Shown here: positions 1 to 24,843 of the stretch, piece by piece
Position numbering within the stretch: position 1 is the stretch's first letter
How the letters are laid out: every line of letters begins with the position of its first letter
Virus record (IMG/VR): IMGVR_UViG_3300020190_000263
Coordinates: 1 to 29,447 of that record
Direction: 5' to 3' (one strand)
DNA from: a virus
DNA length: 29,447 bases
Made by a program: the position numbers and the translations under genes
The notes under the pieces: model-generated
What the model saw: only the letters and a program-made list of their open reading frames with translations
Told to the model about the DNA's origin: nothing
Databases searched by the model: none

Positions 1-1351
1 CAGTTGAAGATAATTGGTTTACAACGGAACCACTTGTTCCTGAGTGGGTAGGAGTGGCAAACACATGGGTGTGCCCGGAGTGCTCAGTGGTGTTGAGAGT
101 GTAGTGTACCTGCATTCCTTGACCAACAATTCCTGTTAGCCCATCTGCAACTAAATCAGCGGTAGCTGACCCAGGTACTACATAACCCTTTAACCACCCG
201 GTAGTTCCAGGGTATAGAACTCCAGCAATTGCTTGTCCAAGCCTAGTAACAAACCCAATACCTTCTGACGGCGTTTCGTCTTGACCACCCAAGGGTTGGT
301 GGCTGTGTTGCCCACCATTGACAGTGGTGCCAGAACCATGACCATGGGCAATATTGTGCGTGTGATCACCAATTGTGTGGGTGTGCGACCCAAGACTGTG
401 AGTGTGGCTGGGCAAGTTGCCCGAACCGATGGTTATTGTTGAACTTCCACTAATGGCTCCCGCCGTAGAGTTACCAGTAACAAATTTTGATGTCTCAGAG
501 TACAGGTTTGGAAGGCTAAATTGGGTAGCTGTTTGAGGTCCGTAAGTGTCGCCTAAAAGATTGTGCAACTCAGCATACGACTCTTTTGAGACCGACTGAC
601 CGTTACACTCTAGCCAAAACGTTTTATTAGCAGGGTTAGGGCTAGCGACGTTACTTGGCCACATAATGATTGACCCAATAGGTGTTACTGAACCCGAGTC
701 ATCACTTAAAAGAAGCTCAATCCATGCCCCATCACGCTTAACGTACACACCTGATGAGCTAGTGCCAACAGAGTTTTTATAGTAAAAATCACCATCCAAA
801 CCAATGCCGTTTGATGGCACCACGTTTCCACGGAGGCTTGTGGTAGATGGGACGTTTACACGTTTGTCAACAATGTTGGCATTTGACGGGGATGTTGTTC
901 CTTGACGGAACACCATAGCCAAAACAACGTCATTTTCTGTTATGTACGTAGCTGTGTTAATTCCATCAGTAGTTACCAAACGGGCTGCTGACTTGGGGTA
1001 CGTTGGGTTTGTAACATTTTGTACACCGTCAATAATAGTGATAGATGCTGTGTTTGCTGAGGGTGTGCATCTAACAACAACAGCATCAAATCTATACCCA
1101 GATGATGGGCCAGTGTTTAGTGGTTTACTAGCATCACCAAAAACTTCGTATACTACTCCTCTAAGGGCTACAAAACCACTAGCGATGGCAAGGAACCCAG
1201 ATGACGTTGAGGCAGTTACTGCACACCCAGACAATACACCAGTCGACCTATCACCCAAAATTTCAAAATCAAGTGAGTCTGGTTCCGCTTGATCAAGGGC
1301 AATAAATTTATTACCGTCAACATCAGTTGCGTTAGGGATTATGTAAGGCAT
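1..1351 (-). CDS. Tail fibre with phage tail-collar domain (C-terminus cut by window edge)
   Basis: An open frame begins at an ATG at 1351, with GAGG about 6 nt upstream, and stays open to the left edge, giving about 450 residues without a stop. Residues about 222-285 read as a phage tail-collar domain, with the typical 'IMWPS...W.ECNGQSVSK..Y..L...LG..YG' pattern followed by 'FSLPNL'. At about residues 313-342 there is a histidine-rich stretch of HTH motifs spaced about seven residues apart (SHTHSLG SHTHTIG DHTHNI), and another HTH occurs near the visible end. Collar-domain proteins form trimeric distal fibres or adhesins, and HxH motifs in such fibres can bind metal. It is probably a receptor-binding or fibre protein, expressed after the capsid and the small 83-aa gene. 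The receptor is unknown. Confidence 0.85.
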   Translation of the reverse strand, partial: MPYIIPNATDVDGNKFIALDQAEPDSLDFEILGDRSTGVLSGCAVTASTSSGFLAIASGFVALRGVVYEVFGDASKPLNTGPSSGYRFDAVVVRCTPSANTASITIIDGVQNVTNPTYPKSAARLVTTDGINTATYITENDVVLAMVFRQGTTSPSNANIVDKRVNVPSTTSLRGNVVPSNGIGLDGDFYYKNSVGTSSSGVYVKRDGAWIELLLSDDSGSVTPIGSIIMWPSNVASPNPANKTFWLECNGQSVSKESYAELHNLLGDTYGPQTATQFSLPNLYSETSKFVTGNSTAGAISGSSTITIGSGNLPSHTHSLGSHTHTIGDHTHNIAHGHGSGTTVNGGQHSHQPLGGQDETPSEGIGFVTRLGQAIAGVLYPGTTGWLKGYVVPGSATADLVADGLTGIVGQGMQVHYTLNTTEHSGHTHVFATPTHSGTSGSVVNQLSST

Positions 1352-10828: not shown

Positions 10829-12325
10829 TTAGTTGAATACTATTGTTAGTCTGCCAGAGTCTGCATCACCCCAAGGTGAATTAAAAACACGATAAGTAGT
10901 TCCATTGGAACAGGTAGTAGCAGCTGTTCCGTTTATACTACCATCAGCATTTCCAGGATACATAAACATTCCAAAGTCACTATCAACTGCCATGCGACCA
11001 CGTGTTCCCGAGGTTAGTGTAAACTCTCTCGCGTTGCCTTGCGTTTGTGATGTTCCAGTTGTCCAATAGGCTGTGTCGTTGACAGGTGCGCCAGCAGGTG
11101 GTGACGCATAGTTGTGTGTTGCAAAAGCAACAACAGCTCCTGAACAACCATCCGCTGTTCCTCTAAGTGTGCGAAAAGTTGCACTATCAGGGATAAATCC
11201 CTTTGTTACATCACTAACGCTTGAACCATAGAACCAATAGCCGTACTGATATCCATAGGTAGTGTTGAGCCACCCAGATAATACAGAAACGAGACTTTGA
11301 GGATCGTTTCTCCAACCACTGCTGCTCCCCCAGGTTCCCCACCCTTTTGCTTTTACGTAGAAAGTACCGAGAGGTTTAGTCCATCTAGTAACAGAACCTG
11401 GTCCTTGACCTGACTTACCTACATTGTCAGTAGCAACTATATAATACACAACTAGCCAAGATTCTCCTCCTGGTGTAGCGCGTCTATTGGAGGGTGTTGT
11501 GAATGTAGTTGAAGAACCAGACCACTTATTAGACGGTATTACATAGCTTGATCCGGAAACAAATCCGCTGGAACTTCCAAAAAATAGTTCATGAAGAGTT
11601 GCTGATGCAACACCACTATGAGCGTCTGTTATTGCACCCCATGAAACTGTGACAGTTGTACCATTAATAGAAACTGACGGTTGTGGGACAACTGGGGCAA
11701 TTGCCTTTGTTGATCCGGTACCACTACCATTTGTAGATCTGTCATTATTTGTTGTAATCGCTCGCACAGTTACAGTATAAGAAGCTTCATCAGCTAACCC
11801 ACTTATCGTAAAGTTAGCAGATGACACACCAGTCCAAGTACCTCCAGAGTTCAAACTGTACTCATACGGGGTGCTACCGTTTAGGTTGTCAGTACCAGCA
11901 GTTCCTGCCGTGACAGCAACGCTTAGTTTACCATTATCAGTAGCATGTTCTGTAACAGTAACTGTCGGTGCACCGGGTAGGGCAACTGGACGACCAATCG
12001 TAGAGTTGGATTGTTCGGAGGCTCCAATTGAGTTAACAGCACGTAGCCTTATTGTATAGCTTGTACCGTTTGTTAATCCAGTAATAACTACTGGAGATGC
12101 AGTGCCAGATCTAGTTACCCACGTTGAACCGTTGTCTATTGAGTATTGATAGTCAGTTGTGGCTGTTGTACCAACCGTACCAGCAGTAAACGACACCTCT
12201 AATCGTCCACCGGTAGTACCATTCAAATATGCAATACCAGTTATTGTTGGGGCTCCCGGTCTTATACCACTGCCAAGACCTAGGGATCGTGAAGACCCAG
12301 AAGAAAAGGTGGATACTAGGGGCAT
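10829..12325 (-). CDS. Fibronectin type III repeat adhesin / tail fibre
   Basis: The 498-residue product has three consecutive fibronectin type III-like domains, at about residues 23-112, 116-210 and 214-316. They show 'PGAPTITGI', 'YQYSIDNGSTWV', 'GLTNGTSYTIRLRAVNS' and 'YEYSLNSGGTWT' type strands. The C-terminal 180 residues are Gly/Ser/Tyr/Trp-rich and unlike FN3, and probably form the receptor-contacting tip. FN3 modules are common on phage virion surfaces and help attach to cell-wall sugars. Its ATG overlaps the stop of the preceding fibre gene (TAATG), so the two are translationally coupled. No cleavable signal or anchor is present, which fits a virion protein. Confidence 0.85.
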   Translation of the reverse strand: MPLVSTFSSGSSRSLGLGSGIRPGAPTITGIAYLNGTTGGRLEVSFTAGTVGTTATTDYQYSIDNGSTWVTRSGTASPVVITGLTNGTSYTIRLRAVNSIGASEQSNSTIGRPVALPGAPTVTVTEHATDNGKLSVAVTAGTAGTDNLNGSTPYEYSLNSGGTWTGVSSANFTISGLADEASYTVTVRAITTNNDRSTNGSGTGSTKAIAPVVPQPSVSINGTTVTVSWGAITDAHSGVASATLHELFFGSSSGFVSGSSYVIPSNKWSGSSTTFTTPSNRRATPGGESWLVVYYIVATDNVGKSGQGPGSVTRWTKPLGTFYVKAKGWGTWGSSSGWRNDPQSLVSVLSGWLNTTYGYQYGYWFYGSSVSDVTKGFIPDSATFRTLRGTADGCSGAVVAFATHNYASPPAGAPVNDTAYWTTGTSQTQGNAREFTLTSGTRGRMAVDSDFGMFMYPGNADGSINGTAATTCSNGTTYRVFNSPWGDADSGRLTIVFN

Positions 12326-13269
12326 TACGCAAACTTAGTCTGTGAGGCAAACACCGTGTATGTATTAGTAGCGGTTTTAATGATAGTGTAAGCGTAAATA
12401 TCTACGCTGTTTGCGCTACCAGCTGTAGGTGCTGTACCGCCTTGCCATTTAGGTGTAACTGATGAACCATCAATAGTTACCGATGTTGGGTAGTACGGTG
12501 TAGAACCGTTTGTTACACCTACCGCAACTGTGATGCTTTGGTTATTTGAAAGCATAGAGTTGAGAGTTGTCGAACCATCTCCACGTATATTAAGAACAGT
12601 GTTTACTGTTGCATTGCTGGTATACACCCACGCAGATGAAGTTTTAATGTCTATGTTTTGGGTAGACGATGGTGCTGAGCCAACAACATTCCATGATTCT
12701 ATTGGAGAAGTAAATACTGGTGTTACTAAGGCTGGCGATGTAAATGTACCAGTAGTAACAGTTGGGTTTGTAACCGTAGCAGCGGCTACTGTGCCACCGG
12801 AAATAGTGGGGCTTGATAAAGTTTTGTTTGTTAGTGTTTCCAATCCAGCAAGTGTTGCCCCGTTAACCCATGTTAAACCAGTAGTTTGAGTCGAATCAGC
12901 TGCTAGCATTTGACCATTTGTACCAACTGGTTGTCTTGTTGGTGTGTTTGCAGCTGAGGCAACCAGTACATCACCCTTGGTTGTTAACGTACCTCTGGTA
13001 ATTAAACCAGTAGACCCAGACGTAGCTACAGTGAGTGTGACGACTCCTGAAGTCCCACCACCCGTTAACCCAGTGCCAGCTGTTACCCCAGTTATTGTTC
13101 CTGAGTTAAAAAAAGGCAAAGACGCCCATGGAGTGGAGCCATCTCCAACTTTTAGCTGTTTTGATGTAGTGTCTACACCAATCTCACCAGCTGCCAATGT
13201 AGCGTATTCGGGGGATGCTGCAGCCCACTGTTGAGTGGTACCACGCCGCATTTGTATTCTAACTGCCAT
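12325..13269 (-). CDS. Tail fibre with tropism-determinant-like N-terminus
   Basis: The 314-residue product begins with 'VRIQMRRGTTQQWAAA.P.LAAGEIGVDTTSKQLKVGDGSTPWASLP', the phage fibre N-terminal domain found in major tropism determinant and hyaluronidase-type fibres, which docks the fibre to the tail. The middle is a Thr/Ser/Gly-rich repetitive shaft ('TNKTLSSPTISGGTV', 'TNPTVTTGTFTSPALVTP'). The C-terminus ends in 'SVDIYAYTIIKTATNTYTVFASQTKFA', a common fibre tip ending. The start ATG has AGGAG upstream. It is followed by the FN3 gene with a 1-bp overlap and preceded by the lysis cassette. Confidence 0.88.
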   Translation of the reverse strand: MAVRIQMRRGTTQQWAAASPEYATLAAGEIGVDTTSKQLKVGDGSTPWASLPFFNSGTITGVTAGTGLTGGGTSGVVTLTVATSGSTGLITRGTLTTKGDVLVASAANTPTRQPVGTNGQMLAADSTQTTGLTWVNGATLAGLETLTNKTLSSPTISGGTVAAATVTNPTVTTGTFTSPALVTPVFTSPIESWNVVGSAPSSTQNIDIKTSSAWVYTSNATVNTVLNIRGDGSTTLNSMLSNNQSITVAVGVTNGSTPYYPTSVTIDGSSVTPKWQGGTAPTAGSANSVDIYAYTIIKTATNTYTVFASQTKFA

Positions 13270-13281
13270 TTGAGGCTCCTA

Positions 13282-14097
13282 TCAGCCAAACATCTTCTTC
13301 CATGTTACAGGCCCGACTACACCGTCTACTTTTAGGCCGTTAGCGGTCTGCCATGCCTTTAGAGACTGTTCTGAGCGGGGGCCAAAGTCCCCGTCAGGGG
13401 TAGCACCAATAATGGCCTGTACAAGAGCGGCAGCTGGGCCCTTAGAGCCACGTTTGATTGGGGTGCCAGGATAGTCAAACTTCATGGGGCCCGCCTCTGG
13501 AGAACCACCAGAAGGTACTAGAGCCTCTACTGGAGCTGCTACAGAGCCGTCTGGGGTCTTATCACCAAGACAGTACTGCCAGTGCCAGGACTCAAACTCC
13601 TTGGAGTTCTTGTCACCAGTCTGAAGGTAGAAACCCCACTTAGGGGCGTTGGCGCACATCCACTCAAAGCAAGCTCCGCCCATGGACTGAAGCTTGCCAC
13701 CAGCCTCGTAACCAAGGTCAATGGCAAGGCCCCAACCGTGGTTGGAACCCTTCTTACCAGTGGGATCTGGTGCAGCGCTGGGAGCCTTACCGGGCTTGAG
13801 GTACCAGGTCTTGCCTTCGTACTGGCGGGTAACCTGGGGCTTACGTCCCTGGTCAGTAGTGGTGTACCGGTCCATGAACATGTTCAGCTGACCCTGGAAC
13901 GAGCGGTAGTCACCGACGTTCTTGAGCTTGTGACCGGCAGCAAGAGCTGCATCGTACATCTTATTGAACTGCTCAGCGGCAGGTTTGTACATCAACCCAC
14001 CAGTTTTCACCTTGGCAAGCAGCTCTTGGGGGAGCTGGCCGTTCTTGTGGTTTGCTAGGGCTGAGGGAAGTACCAGTTTAATGTAGGGGTAAATCAC
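13282..14097 (-). CDS. Endolysin: VanY-type L,D/D,D-carboxypeptidase plus peptidoglycan-binding domain
   Basis: The start taken is the GTG at 14097, which overlaps the TGA of the holin gene (GTGA) and has AGGGGG upstream. This gives 271 residues; a longer frame would run into the holin gene. Residues about 35-178 form an M15/VanY peptidase with zinc ligands H120 and D127 in 'SNHGWGLAIDLG' and H172 in 'ESWHWQY'. Residues 213-271 are a PG_binding_1 domain ('IKRGSKGPAAALVQ...DGDFGP.SEQSLKAWQ...LKVDGVVGPVTWKKMFG'). It cleaves peptide bonds in peptidoglycan at the end of infection after release by the holin. There is no signal peptide, as expected for a holin-dependent enzyme. Confidence 0.93.
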   Translation of the reverse strand: MIYPYIKLVLPSALANHKNGQLPQELLAKVKTGGLMYKPAAEQFNKMYDAALAAGHKLKNVGDYRSFQGQLNMFMDRYTTTDQGRKPQVTRQYEGKTWYLKPGKAPSAAPDPTGKKGSNHGWGLAIDLGYEAGGKLQSMGGACFEWMCANAPKWGFYLQTGDKNSKEFESWHWQYCLGDKTPDGSVAAPVEALVPSGGSPEAGPMKFDYPGTPIKRGSKGPAAALVQAIIGATPDGDFGPRSEQSLKAWQTANGLKVDGVVGPVTWKKMFG

Positions 14098-14285
14098 TCG
14101 GCCCCCTTGCCAAAGGCAGCGTCCTTGGGGTTGATGAAGCGCATTACAACTGGAATGGCAGCGGCCCAAAGAGCGTTTAGGGTTAGCTTCCAGTCCTGGG
14201 TAGCGGTGTAAGTAGCTACACCTGCGCCAAGAACGCTACGAGCGTAGGATGCAATTAGGGCTTTATTTTGCTTTGTCAGAAACAT
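14094..14285 (-). CDS. Probable holin
   Basis: The start at the ATG of 14285 is set by a GGAGG 6 nt upstream; an upstream ATG lies within the preceding coiled-coil gene. The 63-residue product has a basic start (MFLTKQNK), a moderately hydrophobic stretch (ALIASYARSVLGAGVATYTA), a second one (LTLNALWAAAIPVVMRFI) and a C-terminal 'NPKDAAFGKGAE'. Small proteins of this pattern next to endolysins in actinophages act as holins that permeabilise the membrane. It overlaps the endolysin gene by 4 bp. The two short hydrophobic segments are weak by length, so holin rests on both sequence pattern and position. Confidence 0.8.
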   Translation of the reverse strand: MFLTKQNKALIASYARSVLGAGVATYTATQDWKLTLNALWAAAIPVVMRFINPKDAAFGKGAE

Positions 14286-14436: not shown

Positions 14437-15141
14437 TTAGATTCCAATATGACTGTGATCGTGGTGATGAGTCGAATGTAGATCTTCTATCGTCTGAAAG
14501 TTCGTAGGTGTACCGTATGGATGACTACTTAAGAATGTACTAATGATCCACTTGTCCTGCGAATATGTCGGGTTACCCATATGCGGATGAGTATAGTTTG
14601 AAGGGAATAGACATATTCTTCCGACTACCGGATTCACTGCAACCTTGTGTAGAGGAAACTCTGTCTCTCCCCCAGACTCGACAGTGTTCAGATAGACGAC
14701 TGCAGATAGAACTCTATTAGCTGTCTGTGAGACCCATGGCGCTGAATCATAGTGTTCTCGATAGTACCCATCACACGTCTTATATCGTTGCACTTGAAAA
14801 CCTGAATCGACGATATCTGTCCACTCCCATAGAGCTCTGATCTGATGTCTGTAATGAGATACACATGTTGCAATAGCTCTTATCACTTCACCTTCAAACA
14901 TCCGTAGCATAGGCTGTACAGTCATTTGATGCTCTTCTTGGATCGAAATGTGTGAAATCACCATGTCTGTTGAGTTCTTGTGATCTAGTCTAACACCGCT
15001 TATTGTCTTACCTTGGTGTCCGATAACGTCAATCACGGAAGAAGCGTAATTAAGAAACTCACGACATACTTGTTCGTCTAGAGCATTGTCTGCTACTAGA
15101 ATCCCACCACTACGACCTGCTGGCCACTCAAACTTGATCAC
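14437..15141 (-). CDS. 2-oxoglutarate/Fe(II)-dependent oxygenase (prolyl 4-hydroxylase-like)
   Basis: The 234-residue product shows the double-stranded beta-helix signature of 2OG-Fe(II) dioxygenases. The iron ligands are H130 and D132 in 'YYREHYDS' and distal His 187 in 'NYTHPHMGNP', with 'ESGGETEFP' between them. K197 in 'DKWIISTFL' binds the 2OG carboxylate. Such enzymes hydroxylate proteins, nucleic acids or small molecules, and phage members of this type are known but mostly without assigned substrate. The C-terminus is His-rich (HSTHHHDHSH). The GTG start overlaps the TGA of the upstream gene (GTGA). Codon choice (many AGA, CTA and ATC) differs from the surrounding fibre and lysis genes and matches its upstream partner. 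Confidence 0.88.
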   Translation of the reverse strand: MIKFEWPAGRSGGILVADNALDEQVCREFLNYASSVIDVIGHQGKTISGVRLDHKNSTDMVISHISIQEEHQMTVQPMLRMFEGEVIRAIATCVSHYRHQIRALWEWTDIVDSGFQVQRYKTCDGYYREHYDSAPWVSQTANRVLSAVVYLNTVESGGETEFPLHKVAVNPVVGRICLFPSNYTHPHMGNPTYSQDKWIISTFLSSHPYGTPTNFQTIEDLHSTHHHDHSHIGI

Positions 15142-15851
15142 TTGTACCCTCCAATTGGCTTAGACTGTAGAATCTTCTCACACACCCACTCGTTAAACTC
15201 CGAAGCTAGATCAGGTACCTCCGTTCTATCCGCTGGAGTTGTTGCGTTAGGATCTCCCTTGATGAACTTAGACACTTTCTCGTCTGGTAGAGCAGACAAT
15301 AGCCATGACTTAATATCTTCTGGGATGTCTAGGTACCCGACGATCCCGTGACAAGATGTTGCTACTTCTTCTCTGTTGTTTAGCTCCGTATAAGCGTAGT
15401 CCCACTCAAGCATTAGTCTAAAGATTTCTTGCAAAGATCTAGCACAATCTGAATGTCTCTGCCTAATACACGTTTCTTCATCTACCTCGTTCTTTAGTTC
15501 GAAGTAGAGTACATAACCGTGGGGGACTGCACTTATCACAGAAAATACGAAGTTGATATTCGCTAGTACGATCTCGTGATGTCCAAACGATGGATCTGGT
15601 TCATCTGTACGTCCACAGTTGCAGATTTCTAACTCCGCATCCCAACGATGATAGCCGTACGGACCATACGATGCACTATCGCAACGAACCCATACACCAC
15701 TTGGGTCAACAGCTACCTCTGGGTTTAGTCTTGCTCCAGATAAAGCAAAGAATCCAGTCGACGTTGTAGATAAGTCTTTGTGATAGAAGCCTACTCCTCC
15801 TCGATGTACTGGATGATCTCTAAGCCGTTCTACTTTTCTGTCCATAATCAT
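15138..15851 (-). CDS. Hypothetical protein coupled to the 2OG oxygenase
   Basis: The 237-residue product is not recognised. It is probably globular, has several Cys and His residues ('ELEICNCGRTDEP', 'TCIRQRHSDCARS', 'TSCHG'), a helical middle ('LQEIFRLMLEWDYAYTELNNREEV') and an acidic-basic C-terminal helix ('ASEFNEWVCEKILQSKPIGG'). The ATG overlaps the stop of the collar fibre (ATGA), and its TGA overlaps the GTG of the oxygenase, so the three are translationally linked. Arginine is often encoded by AGA and leucine by CTA, as in the oxygenase gene, suggesting the pair entered together. It could be an oxygenase partner, a substrate-recruiting factor or a tail component. Confidence 0.7.
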   Translation of the reverse strand: MIMDRKVERLRDHPVHRGGVGFYHKDLSTTSTGFFALSGARLNPEVAVDPSGVWVRCDSASYGPYGYHRWDAELEICNCGRTDEPDPSFGHHEIVLANINFVFSVISAVPHGYVLYFELKNEVDEETCIRQRHSDCARSLQEIFRLMLEWDYAYTELNNREEVATSCHGIVGYLDIPEDIKSWLLSALPDEKVSKFIKGDPNATTPADRTEVPDLASEFNEWVCEKILQSKPIGGYK

Positions 15852-16915
15852 GCCTTAATGATGTAGATGAATTGAGTTGCCGTCAAGGTGTGTGAATGTG
15901 TCATTGAACTTGTCGATGCTATAGTAATCGTATGGTCGTGGTTCCCCGTCTGGATACCAGCCGTGGCACCAATAATGTGATTGTGGTTCTGCGACTGGTT
16001 ACCAGCGTTTGAGGTAATTGGATGTTGGTGGTTAGTACTAATCCCTGACGTGGTTCCACCGACGTAGTGGTAGTGGTTTTGGTTGATGTCAGCTGTAGTT
16101 TTAGTAGCGCCAGCATTACCAGTGTAGTTGTGAGTATGGCCGTTACTCACATTACCCGTGTTGTTACCCCAGTTGTGGGAATGATCAGCGTTTACGTTGC
16201 CCGCGTTAGATGTGATTGAGTGGTTGTGGTTAGTGGAGTTGTTGCCTGAACTCGCGCTAATCGTATGAGAGTGGTTAGAATTCTCCCACCCAGAATTAGC
16301 ATTGTGACTATGATCAGTGTTGGCTGTTATTGTCGTGACAGTTGGTGATACTGCTCCTGAGTTCCCACCATATGGGAGTCTGGAGGTCATGTCGGGCAGA
16401 TTGAAGGTCGTGCTCCCGTTTCCTTGCCCCCACACGGAAGAGGTTTCCCCCAATGCGATCCACAGGTTTGAATATGTTGTTCTAGATACGGCCGTGCCAT
16501 CACAAATCAACCATCCAGAAGGTGCAGAAAGGCCTGCGTACTGCACCACAGTTCCAGTAGGAACAAACCCCGTGTAAGTAGAATCAACAGCAATAGTAGC
16601 AGTTGAGCCTTCACCGGGGGTATGGGTCACACTAATGCCTGTACCTGCTGACACCCCAGACATGTAGTTACCTGTTGTGTCGGTTCCAAGGTCAATGGGG
16701 TCATTTACCCATGCAGAACCATTGTACTTAAGAAACTCACCAGAGTTGGGAGAAGATACCGTTACGTCAGAAAGGTCATCGAGGGCTAACGATCCTGAAC
16801 CTGGTGTAGCAGGAACAAACTTAGTACCGTTATACGAAAGAACGTTACCATTGGCTGCACCAGCTGTATCAATTTCAACCCCCTTAACAAAGAGGGACTT
16901 TAGAAAGTTAGCCAT
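15848..16915 (-). CDS. Collar-domain tail fibre with ten HxH repeats
   Basis: The 355-residue product has a fibre-type N-terminal region ('LDDLSDVTVSSPNSGEFLKY'), then a phage tail-collar domain at about residues 117-187 ('GTVVQYAGLSAPSGWLICDG' ... 'TTFNLPDMTSRLPYGG'). Residues 202-342 carry ten HxH motifs (HSH, HSH, HNH, HSH, HTH, HYH, HQH, HNH, HDH, HSH), with first-His spacings of 13, 15, 15, 15, 21, 15, 15, 15 and 14 residues. In T4 gp37 similar HxH motifs from three chains bind iron and build a needle-like tip. A long metal-stabilised trimeric rod is therefore the likely structure here. The start ATG has AAAGG upstream. The 3' end overlaps the next gene by 4 bp. Confidence 0.88.
   Translation of the reverse strand: MANFLKSLFVKGVEIDTAGAANGNVLSYNGTKFVPATPGSGSLALDDLSDVTVSSPNSGEFLKYNGSAWVNDPIDLGTDTTGNYMSGVSAGTGISVTHTPGEGSTATIAVDSTYTGFVPTGTVVQYAGLSAPSGWLICDGTAVSRTTYSNLWIALGETSSVWGQGNGSTTFNLPDMTSRLPYGGNSGAVSPTVTTITANTDHSHNANSGWENSNHSHTISASSGNNSTNHNHSITSNAGNVNADHSHNWGNNTGNVSNGHTHNYTGNAGATKTTADINQNHYHYVGGTTSGISTNHQHPITSNAGNQSQNHNHIIGATAGIQTGNHDHTITIASTSSMTHSHTLTATQFIYIIKA
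15890..16312 (-). repeat. Ten-unit HxH coding repeat, about 45-bp period
   Basis: The DNA that encodes residues 202-342 of the collar fibre repeats a loose 45-bp unit corresponding to a 15-residue 'N-H-x-H-x-I-x6-G-N' pattern. Copies are degenerate at the DNA level but strongly conserved at the His and Gly codons, so selection appears to act on the protein. Confidence 0.8.
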
Positions 16916-21909: not shown

Positions 21910-22776
21910 TCAGGAACGAATAGCTCGTCGTATGCCTTCTTCTAGGGATATCTTGGGGATATAGAACGTAAAAAGCTTTGAAGGATCGCATACTCGGTAT
22001 GACACCCCTTCAGGTGCGCCCAATATATGAGTAATAGCTGGTATGTACCCAGCTTCTTTTGCTACCAAGCTAGCAAGTTCATTAAAACTTGTTGCTCTCC
22101 CACACCCTAGATTGACGGGGCCTTGTATGTCTTGCTTAACTGCTTCTAAAGTAGCGTTAACTACATCATCAATATGTATAAAATCCCGCACCTGTTCTCC
22201 AGTACCCCAAATTTCAAATGGGTTATCTTTACGCTTTCCTCGCGCAATAAATGAAGGGAACGGGTAATCCAGATCTTGGTCTTCCCCGTATCCAGAGAAC
22301 GGGCGGAAAACATGAACACGAAGACCTTCGTTACTGGCGTATTTAGCCAAGGTCTCTCCTGTGAGCTTTGCCCATCCGTAGGTTAGATCCGGTGACATAA
22401 CAGAGTCCAGATCAATGTGATTTTCGTGGAGAGCATACTTCATAGTATGGGTTTGGTATGCCGTTGGGTAGGCAGCTGAAGAAGAGTAGTACACCGTTCT
22501 GTCTGGGCGTGTGCGTAGAGCCCACTGAAACATGTCGGAGTCAATAGCAAGGTCAGTTGCTACCTTCAGCGGGTTGCCTTCTATTGTGGCTCTTCCACCT
22601 ACAATTGCGGCCAAATGAATTACTAAATTAAATTTGGTGTCGTCTACTTTAAAGAAATCTCTACAATCGTTTCCATCTTTAATGTCAATTAAAGTTAGAT
22701 CATATGAACCTTCAAGTTTTTCAACAAAATGCCGTCCAACAAACCCGGCGTATCCAGTAATTAGAGCTTTTTTCAT
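21910..22776 (-). CDS. NAD-dependent sugar epimerase/dehydratase (extended SDR)
   Basis: The start at 22776 is chosen because its ATG overlaps the TGA of the methyltransferase gene (ATGA) and places the nucleotide-binding motif at the N-terminus. The 288-residue product has the Rossmann signature GYAGFVG (8-14), the acidic D31 after strand 2, the 'VIHLAAIVGG' segment (52-61), catalytic S98-S100 and Y133-x3-K137 (YGWAK). 'RPFSGYG' and 'GTGEQVRDFIHIDDVV' follow. This matches GDP-fucose synthase / UDP-sugar epimerase relatives. It interconverts nucleotide sugars. With the adjacent glycosyltransferases it probably supplies a modified sugar for a surface or virion glycan. Confidence 0.9.
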   Translation of the reverse strand: MKKALITGYAGFVGRHFVEKLEGSYDLTLIDIKDGNDCRDFFKVDDTKFNLVIHLAAIVGGRATIEGNPLKVATDLAIDSDMFQWALRTRPDRTVYYSSSAAYPTAYQTHTMKYALHENHIDLDSVMSPDLTYGWAKLTGETLAKYASNEGLRVHVFRPFSGYGEDQDLDYPFPSFIARGKRKDNPFEIWGTGEQVRDFIHIDDVVNATLEAVKQDIQGPVNLGCGRATSFNELASLVAKEAGYIPAITHILGAPEGVSYRVCDPSKLFTFYIPKISLEEGIRRAIRS

Positions 22777-23360
22777 ACGTTTACCGATTCGCATAGTGCT
22801 ACTTGGAAATTACCAGGCGTTTCGTGCCGTACAACTCTCCACCCGTTGGATTCAAGCATACGAGCGTATCCTTCTACATCCCATGCCCAAGCATGATATT
22901 CGTAGTGGTTGTTGACACTTTCTGTCCAAGGAGAACTAGCAATTAGGTATTTGCTCTTCTGACTAACCATATTTACAAACTGGTGTGGTCCTGCTAGATG
23001 TTCAATCATCTCTGTGGCAATAGCGATATCCGCCCAATCAATAGGATCGAATACACTACCGTAGCGAACATCCTGATCTCGATTTACTGCTCCAGCCACA
23101 TTTGATGGTTGTAGGTCATACCCCCATTTTTGAGCTTTGGGGACTTCTGTTAGAAGTGATAAGAGCCCACCATCACCAGAACCTAGGTCAACAACAGTCA
23201 GCTCTGGTGACCATACGGTCATTACAAATTGTGCCGCGGTGTTTAAGCGAGGTCGGTGCATTTCTTGGTCAACATGTGGTGCGATCTCGCGGTCTAAATA
23301 CCACTCGGCAGTACAATACTCTGGGATAGTGCCTAACGGGAAAAACCTATCTTCTCTCAT
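22773..23360 (-). CDS. SAM-dependent methyltransferase
   Basis: The 195-residue product has the class I methyltransferase motif I 'VVDLGSGDGG' (56-65), an acidic residue after strand 2 ('WGYDLQP'), a post-motif 'IAIATEMIEHL' and 'YLIASSPW'. The C-terminal 'WDVEGYARMLESNGWRVVRHE' is typical of small-molecule or sugar methylases of the Methyltransf_11/25 type. It is coupled by 4-bp overlaps at both ends with the glycosyltransferase and the epimerase, so methylation of a sugar in the same pathway is the likely role. Confidence 0.85.
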   Translation of the reverse strand: MREDRFFPLGTIPEYCTAEWYLDREIAPHVDQEMHRPRLNTAAQFVMTVWSPELTVVDLGSGDGGLLSLLTEVPKAQKWGYDLQPSNVAGAVNRDQDVRYGSVFDPIDWADIAIATEMIEHLAGPHQFVNMVSQKSKYLIASSPWTESVNNHYEYHAWAWDVEGYARMLESNGWRVVRHETPGNFQVALCESVNV

Positions 23361-24037
23361 TTTAAGGTTCTCAATTTCTGCAGATCAGCTTGTAATTGGG
23401 TAGCAACATAGTTGTTAAAAGTCAGTTCATCGGCATTGGACACTTTTAAGTCATTTGCTTCAGTGTAAGTTGTATCGTGTGCTGCTTTTCCAAAAAATGG
23501 GTGGATGTGCTCAATAACAACATCATCTAGGTAGTGCGCGCTGTCTAGCCCACGACCTATTGCTAGCCAGAAGTTATCTAGAAATAGGTGTATCCCTCCC
23601 GGCATAACAAAGTAACCAAGAGTACTGACAATATTTGAAGTCATGGCTACCGCAGTTGGTAAGTTTGCGCCGTGGTAAAGGTCATTGCCCCAGGTGATGC
23701 CTACTCCAGCCTTTTCCAACGTTGTAAGGAACCGATCATCCCATCCCTTAGTGCGTGGCAAGTGGTCGTCTCCCAGGAATCCAATAGCAAAGCAGTTTTC
23801 TGCTTCAATTGGGGCGACAGCATTAAGGGTACCCCCAATTCTTAGACGTGGGCCAACCTGTATGTCAATATTTGGAATAGCGAGGTACTCGTCCAGCTTG
23901 GGATCGTCGTTATCAACCAATACTAGAAGGCGTGTATTGCGTGTGGTTGTTGTATTCCAAGCGTCCATTAGACGAATTATATTTTGTGGCCGTCCACGTG
24001 ATGGTACGAGCATGGTCATTTCAAACATGTTTATCAT
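23357..24037 (-). CDS. Glycosyltransferase-like protein (GT-A fold), first of two in reading order from the left
   Basis: The 226-residue product begins 'MTMLVPSRGRPQNIIRLMDAW', the usual first strand of family 2-like glycosyltransferases. It then has 'LLVLVDNDDPKLDEYL', a 'GGTLNAVAPIEAE' loop and the metal-binding-like 'GFLGDDHLP' (D90, D91). The second half is less typical but contains a DD pair (LDDVV). It probably transfers a nucleotide-activated sugar. It is translated with its neighbours (TAATG with the upstream GT, ATGA with the methyltransferase). The acceptor is unknown. Confidence 0.8.
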   Translation of the reverse strand: MINMFEMTMLVPSRGRPQNIIRLMDAWNTTTTRNTRLLVLVDNDDPKLDEYLAIPNIDIQVGPRLRIGGTLNAVAPIEAENCFAIGFLGDDHLPRTKGWDDRFLTTLEKAGVGITWGNDLYHGANLPTAVAMTSNIVSTLGYFVMPGGIHLFLDNFWLAIGRGLDSAHYLDDVVIEHIHPFFGKAAHDTTYTEANDLKVSNADELTFNNYVATQLQADLQKLRTLK

Positions 24038-24843
24038 TACCCTAATGGTGGTACTAGTGGGGAGTATATTTCTCTAATGTCCATTATGGCAGAGTTTTTG
24101 CCTGCTTGAGATGATTCTTCCAATGTTACCGATGAGCGGAAGTTCCCTATCCATCTAGTATCAAAAAATGGTAGGATTTTTAGCATGCAATATGTGATGT
24201 CAATGCTGTAAATCAAATTACTTGCTATTGCTGGAGTGAGATACTGGTGTCCCCGTGTAAATCCAGCCATATTTGCCCTTTTACTAATCTGAGCATGCTC
24301 ATAACCATACAGGTGGGGGGCATCATTGGGGTAACCACCCAGGGCATCTATACATTTTCTATTGAAGTAGAGCATTACGCCAAAACAGTTAGAAAATGAA
24401 ACCATCTTCGTTTCGTTATCCCCAATTGAAGCAATTGGCTGAACAACTGCCCTAAATGCTGGGTTTAAGTCCAGTAGTTCTGCAGCAGTGACATTAAACA
24501 TAGAGTGCCCAACACCATTTACCTCATTTATGTTGATCCACGTTTCAGCCCAGTTATAACACTGTGGCCAGGTGTCATCATCAAACAGGAATACATGGTC
24601 GTAGTCGCGGAGTTCCCATAGGCATGCATTTTTTGCCTTTGATACACCTAATCGTGAAGTGCTATATTTGTATATAACGTTAATATTAAAGGATTCAGCA
24701 ACAATTTTATTAACTTGCCATAATTCACTGTTATCATCTATAACAACAACTTTGTCACCATGACCAAATTCGGTAAAGTGACGTAGACATGCTTCCAGAC
24801 ATTCTGGTCTGTTCCTTGTTGTTATGCCGATCCCTATAGACAT
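24037..24843 (-). CDS. Family 2-type glycosyltransferase
   Basis: The 268-residue product has 'IGIGITTRNRPECLEACLRHF' at the N-terminus, 'VVVIDDNSE' (33-40), 'SRLGVSKAKNACLWEL' and the DxD-type 'VFLFDDDTWP' (D88-D90) that binds metal and the sugar nucleotide. These are standard GT2/GT-A features. The C-terminal half has acceptor-side motifs ('FGVMLYFNRKCIDALGGYP', 'YGYEHAQISKRA'). It is the first gene of the four-gene sugar module. There is no clear Shine-Dalgarno site before the ATG, and a TAAAAT 24 bp upstream may be its promoter. Confidence 0.88.
   Translation of the reverse strand: MSIGIGITTRNRPECLEACLRHFTEFGHGDKVVVIDDNSELWQVNKIVAESFNINVIYKYSTSRLGVSKAKNACLWELRDYDHVFLFDDDTWPQCYNWAETWININEVNGVGHSMFNVTAAELLDLNPAFRAVVQPIASIGDNETKMVSFSNCFGVMLYFNRKCIDALGGYPNDAPHLYGYEHAQISKRANMAGFTRGHQYLTPAIASNLIYSIDITYCMLKILPFFDTRWIGNFRSSVTLEESSQAGKNSAIMDIREIYSPLVPPLG

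Follow-up and report, generated by a model that had tools for sequence, protein, structure and literature searches.

The collar fibre encoded in the window (the whole 29,447-nucleotide stretch of viral DNA analyzed here) most probably ends in a tip of the T4 gp37 D10-D11 kind, that is, an intertwined out-and-back hairpin whose two arms alternate in one metal column of about ten sites. We place the probability of this reading at about 85%. Three lines of evidence carry it: a mirror-symmetric array of HxH motifs behind the collar domain, homology to the T4 fibre tip from the collar to the C-terminal strand, and the way in which outgoing and return motifs mesh in the arrays of other viral contigs.

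The Fibre Gene and Its HxH Array

The ten HxH motifs lie between window positions 15890 and 16312, within the 355-residue open reading frame and downstream of the PF07484 collar domain (table 1). The spacings of their first histidines, 13, 15, 15, 15, 21, 15, 15, 15, and 14 residues, are exactly those given by the sequence-only reading. The motifs take up 20 of the 21 histidines of the protein; upon shuffling the C-terminal 170 residues 20,000 times, the mean was 2.2 HxH and ten were never reached. The array is nearly palindromic, with five motifs, a central gap of 21 residues and again five motifs, forming mirror-image arms. Its low complexity makes alignments inside the array unreliable. Still, repeats are alike within an arm, and an ITSNAGN repeat is found in both arms as well as in L185 (4+25+4) and L190 (4+20+4), the nearest needle relatives among the matches listed. 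Since these two carry four motifs per arm, the window fibre has one extra motif on each arm. In both relatives (L185:4119-4949, minus strand; L190:2655-6269, plus strand) the needle follows collagen-like repeats, with a PF01391 match in L185.

Table 1. Coordinates of the Collar Fibre, Its Parts and the Second Fibre in the Window
Feature	Window position	Strand	Basis
Collar fibre gene P0001, 355 aa	15848-16915	minus	ORF; Pfam collar match
N-terminal part, aa 1-117	16565..16915	minus	Common to viruses with a different C-terminal part
Phage tail collar domain PF07484, aa 121-181, needle base	16373..16555	minus	E 6.6e-16 / 1.8e-18
Outgoing arm, HxH at aa 202, 215, 230, 245, 260	16130..16312	minus	Motif positions; arm model
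Putative turn and receptor-facing end of the needle, aa 263-280, NYTGNAGATKTTADINQN	16076..16129	minus	Mirror-symmetric array centre; T4 tip position
Return arm, HxH at aa 281, 296, 311, 326, 340	15890..16075	minus	Motif positions; arm model
C-terminal beta strand FIYIIKA, aa 349-355, predicted to close the collar	15851..15871	minus	AF2 strand; gp37 end match
Second collar fibre, cut by the window edge	2..1351	minus	Outgoing-arm HxH spacing 7,7,6,13

Proposed Needle and Its Metal

In the architecture that we propose, the chain would leave the collar (aa 121-181), run outward as a first arm with five HxH motifs, turn at aa 263-280, run back as a second arm with five more, and end as a strand (aa 349-355) packed against the collar. 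Three chains would intertwine as in T4, with six histidines per HxH layer caging one metal ion, probably iron, in octahedral geometry. Along the axis the motifs of the two arms would alternate (return, out, return, out, and so on), providing about ten sites at a step of about 7.5 residues, in a needle of some 20-23 nm if 67 residues rise by about 3.3 A each, as in an extended strand. The metal column would set the strand register and stiffen the needle, leaving the small tip at the turn to touch the host cell. Iron fills HxH cages in gp37 of T4 as well as in pyocin fibres and spikes (PMC6116203), and in T4 the replacements H929A and H931A abolish plaque formation (PMC6957217). Both facts speak against a hairpin needle in which some or all sites lack metal, or hold zinc, nickel or a mixture, and the motif acts mainly as a packing repeat. 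This we consider unlikely, although T4 gp12 lends it some weight, having been crystallized with zinc (PMC6116203); given that this crystal was obtained after refolding, the native gp12 ion is uncertain.

Proposed Out-and-Back Course of the Chain

A phmmer search with the single fibre protein against PDB sequences returned no match, and so a profile was required (A1, the window fibre plus 11 relatives). Its best PDB match was the long tail fibre of cyanophage A-1(L) (8KEC, E=4.5e-18), followed by T4 gp37 (2XGF, E=1.7e-17, over chain residues 22-240 of 242, with a composition-biased needle part) and, third, by T4 gp12. The homology thus extends through the collar, needle, and C-terminal strand of gp37. 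No match was obtained by tblastn with the needle alone against phage records (low-complexity filter on), and an alignment-based search for relatives gave nothing, there being too few conserved blocks. In an AF2 model of a single chain (aa 86-355), the collar (pLDDT mostly 80-90) and the C-terminal strand (pLDDT 78) were both confident; the needle stayed at about 40 (mean 50, pTM 0.38), as expected where one chain of a putatively intertwined trimer is modeled. Foldseek placed 8KEC and 2XGF at the top ranks. VIA-align gave Z 8.3 against 1OCY (74 residues, rmsd 3.6), 7.9 against 8KEC, and 7.3 against 2XGF (71 residues, rmsd 4.7; model 31..270 on 811..1025), middling values for Z 7-8 over 70-90 aligned residues and carried mainly by the collar. 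The last residue of the model was aligned to gp37 residue 1025. Since the collar and the C-terminal end can each be superposed on fibre tips of T4, the chain would leave the collar, turn within the 21-residue gap, and return; the arm lengths described below agree with such an out-and-back insertion.

The layout of T4 gp37 is similar. Its collar D10 comprises residues 811-881 and 1010-1026, and its HxH motifs, at 883, 915, and 929 and at 966, 980, 989, and 998, flank the tip (932-959; PMC6957217), which thus sits in the central gap between the arms. The window fibre likewise has HxH motifs on both sides of its centre, and we predict that its 21-residue gap forms the tip, the flanking motifs leaving about 18 residues between them. 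In another viral protein (L134:10861-11661, plus strand) a DUF2577 domain is split midway by a 5+25+5 array, which the Pfam match spans (residues 26-265 on profile 15-96); because the array interrupts the domain, this chain must come back too. The same kind of hairpin would here stand on a different base.

What remains of the earlier comparison with gp37 is therefore the HxH column after a collar, which homology upholds, but the geometry differs, with two mirror-image arms. The sequence-only reading had envisaged about ten layers, with the 21-residue gap as a possible joint. Taken as a single run with a flexible joint, this would be a unidirectional rod about twice as long as the hairpin. The regular series of ten motifs behind the collar would suit such a rod; yet the C-terminal strand is back at the collar both in the model and in T4, the array is mirror-symmetric, and the balanced arrays of relatives have central gaps of 20-57 residues. 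Neither the AF2 model, nor VIA-align, nor the mapping of motifs has the second half running on away from the collar. Moreover, when motifs are mapped as if the chain ran on in parallel (offsets 0-28), 14 to 21 of 35 fall in narrow intervals, against none in antiparallel mapping at k=18-22. A single run is thus very improbable. The gap is better understood as the hairpin turn at the cell-facing tip, in the array centre, and with the chain running out and back ten sites would fit a rod of about half the residue length earlier implied.

Probable Interleaving of the Two Arms

Viral contigs were scanned for four HxH at 15, 13, 14, and 7 residues, and noise (low complexity, His-rich reverse frames) was removed by histidine fraction, collar-like sequence, and closed frame. 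At least 55 two-arm arrays were kept after removal of noise and near-duplicates. The arms are equal within one motif in 51 of the 55 listed, compared with a mean of 20.5 and a maximum of 34 in 20,000 null draws. Arrays of 11 to 15 motifs are present in other viral contigs, the largest among the matches listed having 8+7 (L244, L276, L301, and L313). The window array, supposed earlier to be longer than the described case, does surpass the seven sites of T4 with its ten but is not exceptional. One contig (L037:977-3799, plus strand) holds three tandem collar-needle genes of 6+5 motifs each, with tips of 39, 34, and 46 residues, perhaps heterotrimer partners or alternative tips.

Arm lengths follow a simple relation. 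Among 43 listed arrays with a single candidate tip, the return arm, taken as far as the C-terminal strand, in most cases exceeds the outgoing one by about 18 residues; these include arrays in which one arm has many 7-spaced motifs and the other just one or two. L297 and L530 depart from this rule, with differences of 124 and 85, and neither has the usual end strand. L121 and L543 fit poorly. The number of return motifs tracks how many extra sites would fit into the outgoing intervals at a 7.3-residue step (r=0.93, the step being fitted on the arrays tested), and not the count of outgoing motifs (r=0.04); steps of 6.5-8.5 gave r of 0.83-0.88 in the 55 listed arrays, ambiguous tips included. Uniform arrays alone do not reveal a half-period offset, their clash curve repeating every ~14 residues, and mixed arrays were thus needed. 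In the 19 listed mixed arrays, none of 35 mirrored return motifs falls in a narrow outgoing interval (9 or less) at k=18-22, a register offset fitted on these same arrays, whereas shuffling the interval order gave means of 7.5-12.2 (about 9.5-12.2 at k=20-22) and in none of 4,000 shuffles reached zero (P<1/4000). The count is likewise 0 of 33 for 18 representatives of families, these being only roughly thinned in the tests, and 0 of 65, with 13.8 expected, when ambiguous tips are included. At its most even offset (k=21) the window fibre has merged gaps of 8, 6, 7, 8, 7, 8, 7, 8, and 7, return and outgoing motifs alternating; T4 gp37 is most even at k=18, with 7, 9, 9, 7, 7, and 7.

Given equal arms, and return motifs that face nothing but wide outgoing intervals, the two arms probably interlock in a single metal column stepping about 7.5 residues per site; from the even merged gaps at k=21 we propose, for the window fibre, some ten sites along a single axis. 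By contrast, if the array had merely arisen through tandem copying of a His-rich repeat, with no metal column, repeats would be alike within an arm, as they are, ITSNAGN among them, but the equal arms, the central gap and the return motifs confined to wide intervals in mixed arrays would be left unexplained; such an origin is very improbable. Overall, we lean toward a sequence code in which equal antiparallel arms share one HxH file at 7-8 residues per step, one arm per level; one-arm (7) and two-arm (13-15) spacings would be its two settings, T4 gp37 being mixed, and needles would reach 15 sites. No statement of this interleaving rule was found in a literature search outside which lay most subscription papers, including the original one on 2XGF, and the rule may be new. 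If true, it would make the number of metal sites, the needle length, and the receptor-facing tip readable from sequence in many environmental phages, in which such proteins are otherwise annotated just as tail collar or hypothetical. In the window fibre, the candidate receptor contact moves to the 18-residue turn. The rule also touches the iron load of phage particles, an open question for marine phages (PMC11705849).

Second Fibre of the Same Phage

The second collar fibre, at the left edge of the window, had been credited with a 7-residue motif spacing, and spacings of 7, 7, 6, and 13 are indeed found. Its full version in L564 has 483 aa and ends in ISMRWFIRAK, near the 477 aa predicted from the arms. 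The central gap amounts to 78 residues, and the single return motif gives an uneven column at k=18-22 and an even one at 26-27. Judging from these spacings, the 7-residue array looks like the same hairpin in a one-arm layout, its tip being far longer. The idea of two different metal-rod designs in one phage is thus not supported, the 7- and 15-residue arrays apparently following one interleaving rule.

Genomic Context

The fibre is found unchanged in further viral contigs (L001-L003). Streptomyces phage BRock and its relatives share 54-59% identity with the window phage in the major capsid protein and portal; as the BRock annotation includes tail sheath and baseplate proteins, the window phage is probably contractile-tailed, and an actinobacterial host is possible. 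In L008 the fibre start is 78% identical to that of the window fibre, but the C-terminus has no HxH and seems S74-chaperone-like, a label read from the sequence with no profile match behind it; on the same contig, L566 is a left-edge fibre 78% identical to that of the window. With the start kept and the C-terminal module exchanged, this module appears to be swapped as a unit, which fits a role in host recognition.

Several neighboring genes deserve mention. A 2OG-Fe(II) oxygenase gene (14437-15141, minus strand) ends in a His/Asp-rich tail, HSTHHHDHSHIGI, which might bind metal. Oxygenases, often with such a tail, are also located near HxH fibres elsewhere (L185:2588-3388, L004:6744-7541, L006:6978-7787, L246:6349-7128, L286:1811-2530, and L325:5649-6443), and are present in 8 of 73 array loci versus 11 of the 384 other census loci listed (Fisher p=0.005, relatedness ignored). 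In L185 the oxygenase adjoins the gene of the collagen-like-repeat needle, and the enzyme may hydroxylate such repeats. The 237-aa gene overlapping the end of the fibre gene (15138-15851, minus strand) has no Pfam or PHROG match. Adjoining the fibre genes, a gene with VanY carboxypeptidase and peptidoglycan-binding domains (13282-14169, minus strand) encodes a probable endolysin. The N-terminal domain of the protein encoded at 12325-13269 (minus strand) is of the Mtd type (PF18454, E 2.3e-16); the Mtd family includes receptor proteins diversified by retroelements. Farther along, a nucleotide-sugar epimerase, a methyltransferase, and two glycosyltransferase-like genes are consecutive (21910-24843, minus strand), possibly serving sugar modification of the virion or DNA.

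Comparison with Known Fibre Tips

Among known systems, T4 gp37 (2XGF) shares with the window fibre the collar (D10), the inserted needle (D11), HxH on both arms, the central tip, and the conserved C-terminal strand. However, gp37 has seven sites at irregular spacings (32,14 / 37 / 14,9,9) and a 28-residue tip (932-959), whereas the window fibre has ten sites in a near-perfect 15-residue repeat and would turn within about 18 residues. Cyanophage A-1(L) gp34 (8KEC), described as a collar with a gp37-like arm domain (PMC10966104), is similar in this collar and arm and is the top profile and Foldseek match; yet, in the profile alignment, its HxH motifs are close-set in the first half and missing from the second, while the window fibre has them on both arms at double the spacing. 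The tail fibre gp12 of Alteromonas phage R22Y contains several HxH with predicted iron binding (PMC11705849), but its six motifs are irregularly spaced and lie in the N-terminal part instead of the tip. The collar fold is shared by the T4 short tail fibre gp12 (1OCY, VIA Z 8.3), and gp12 and R-type pyocin fibres form a single HxH octahedral cage like that predicted for each HxH layer of the window fibre, with one metal site and no column. HxH motifs are mentioned for further T4-like tips (PMC11990801). From its sequence, the window tip would represent a known kind, that of T4 gp37, in a longer and more regular form than the described examples that we found (seven motifs in T4 and six in R22Y).
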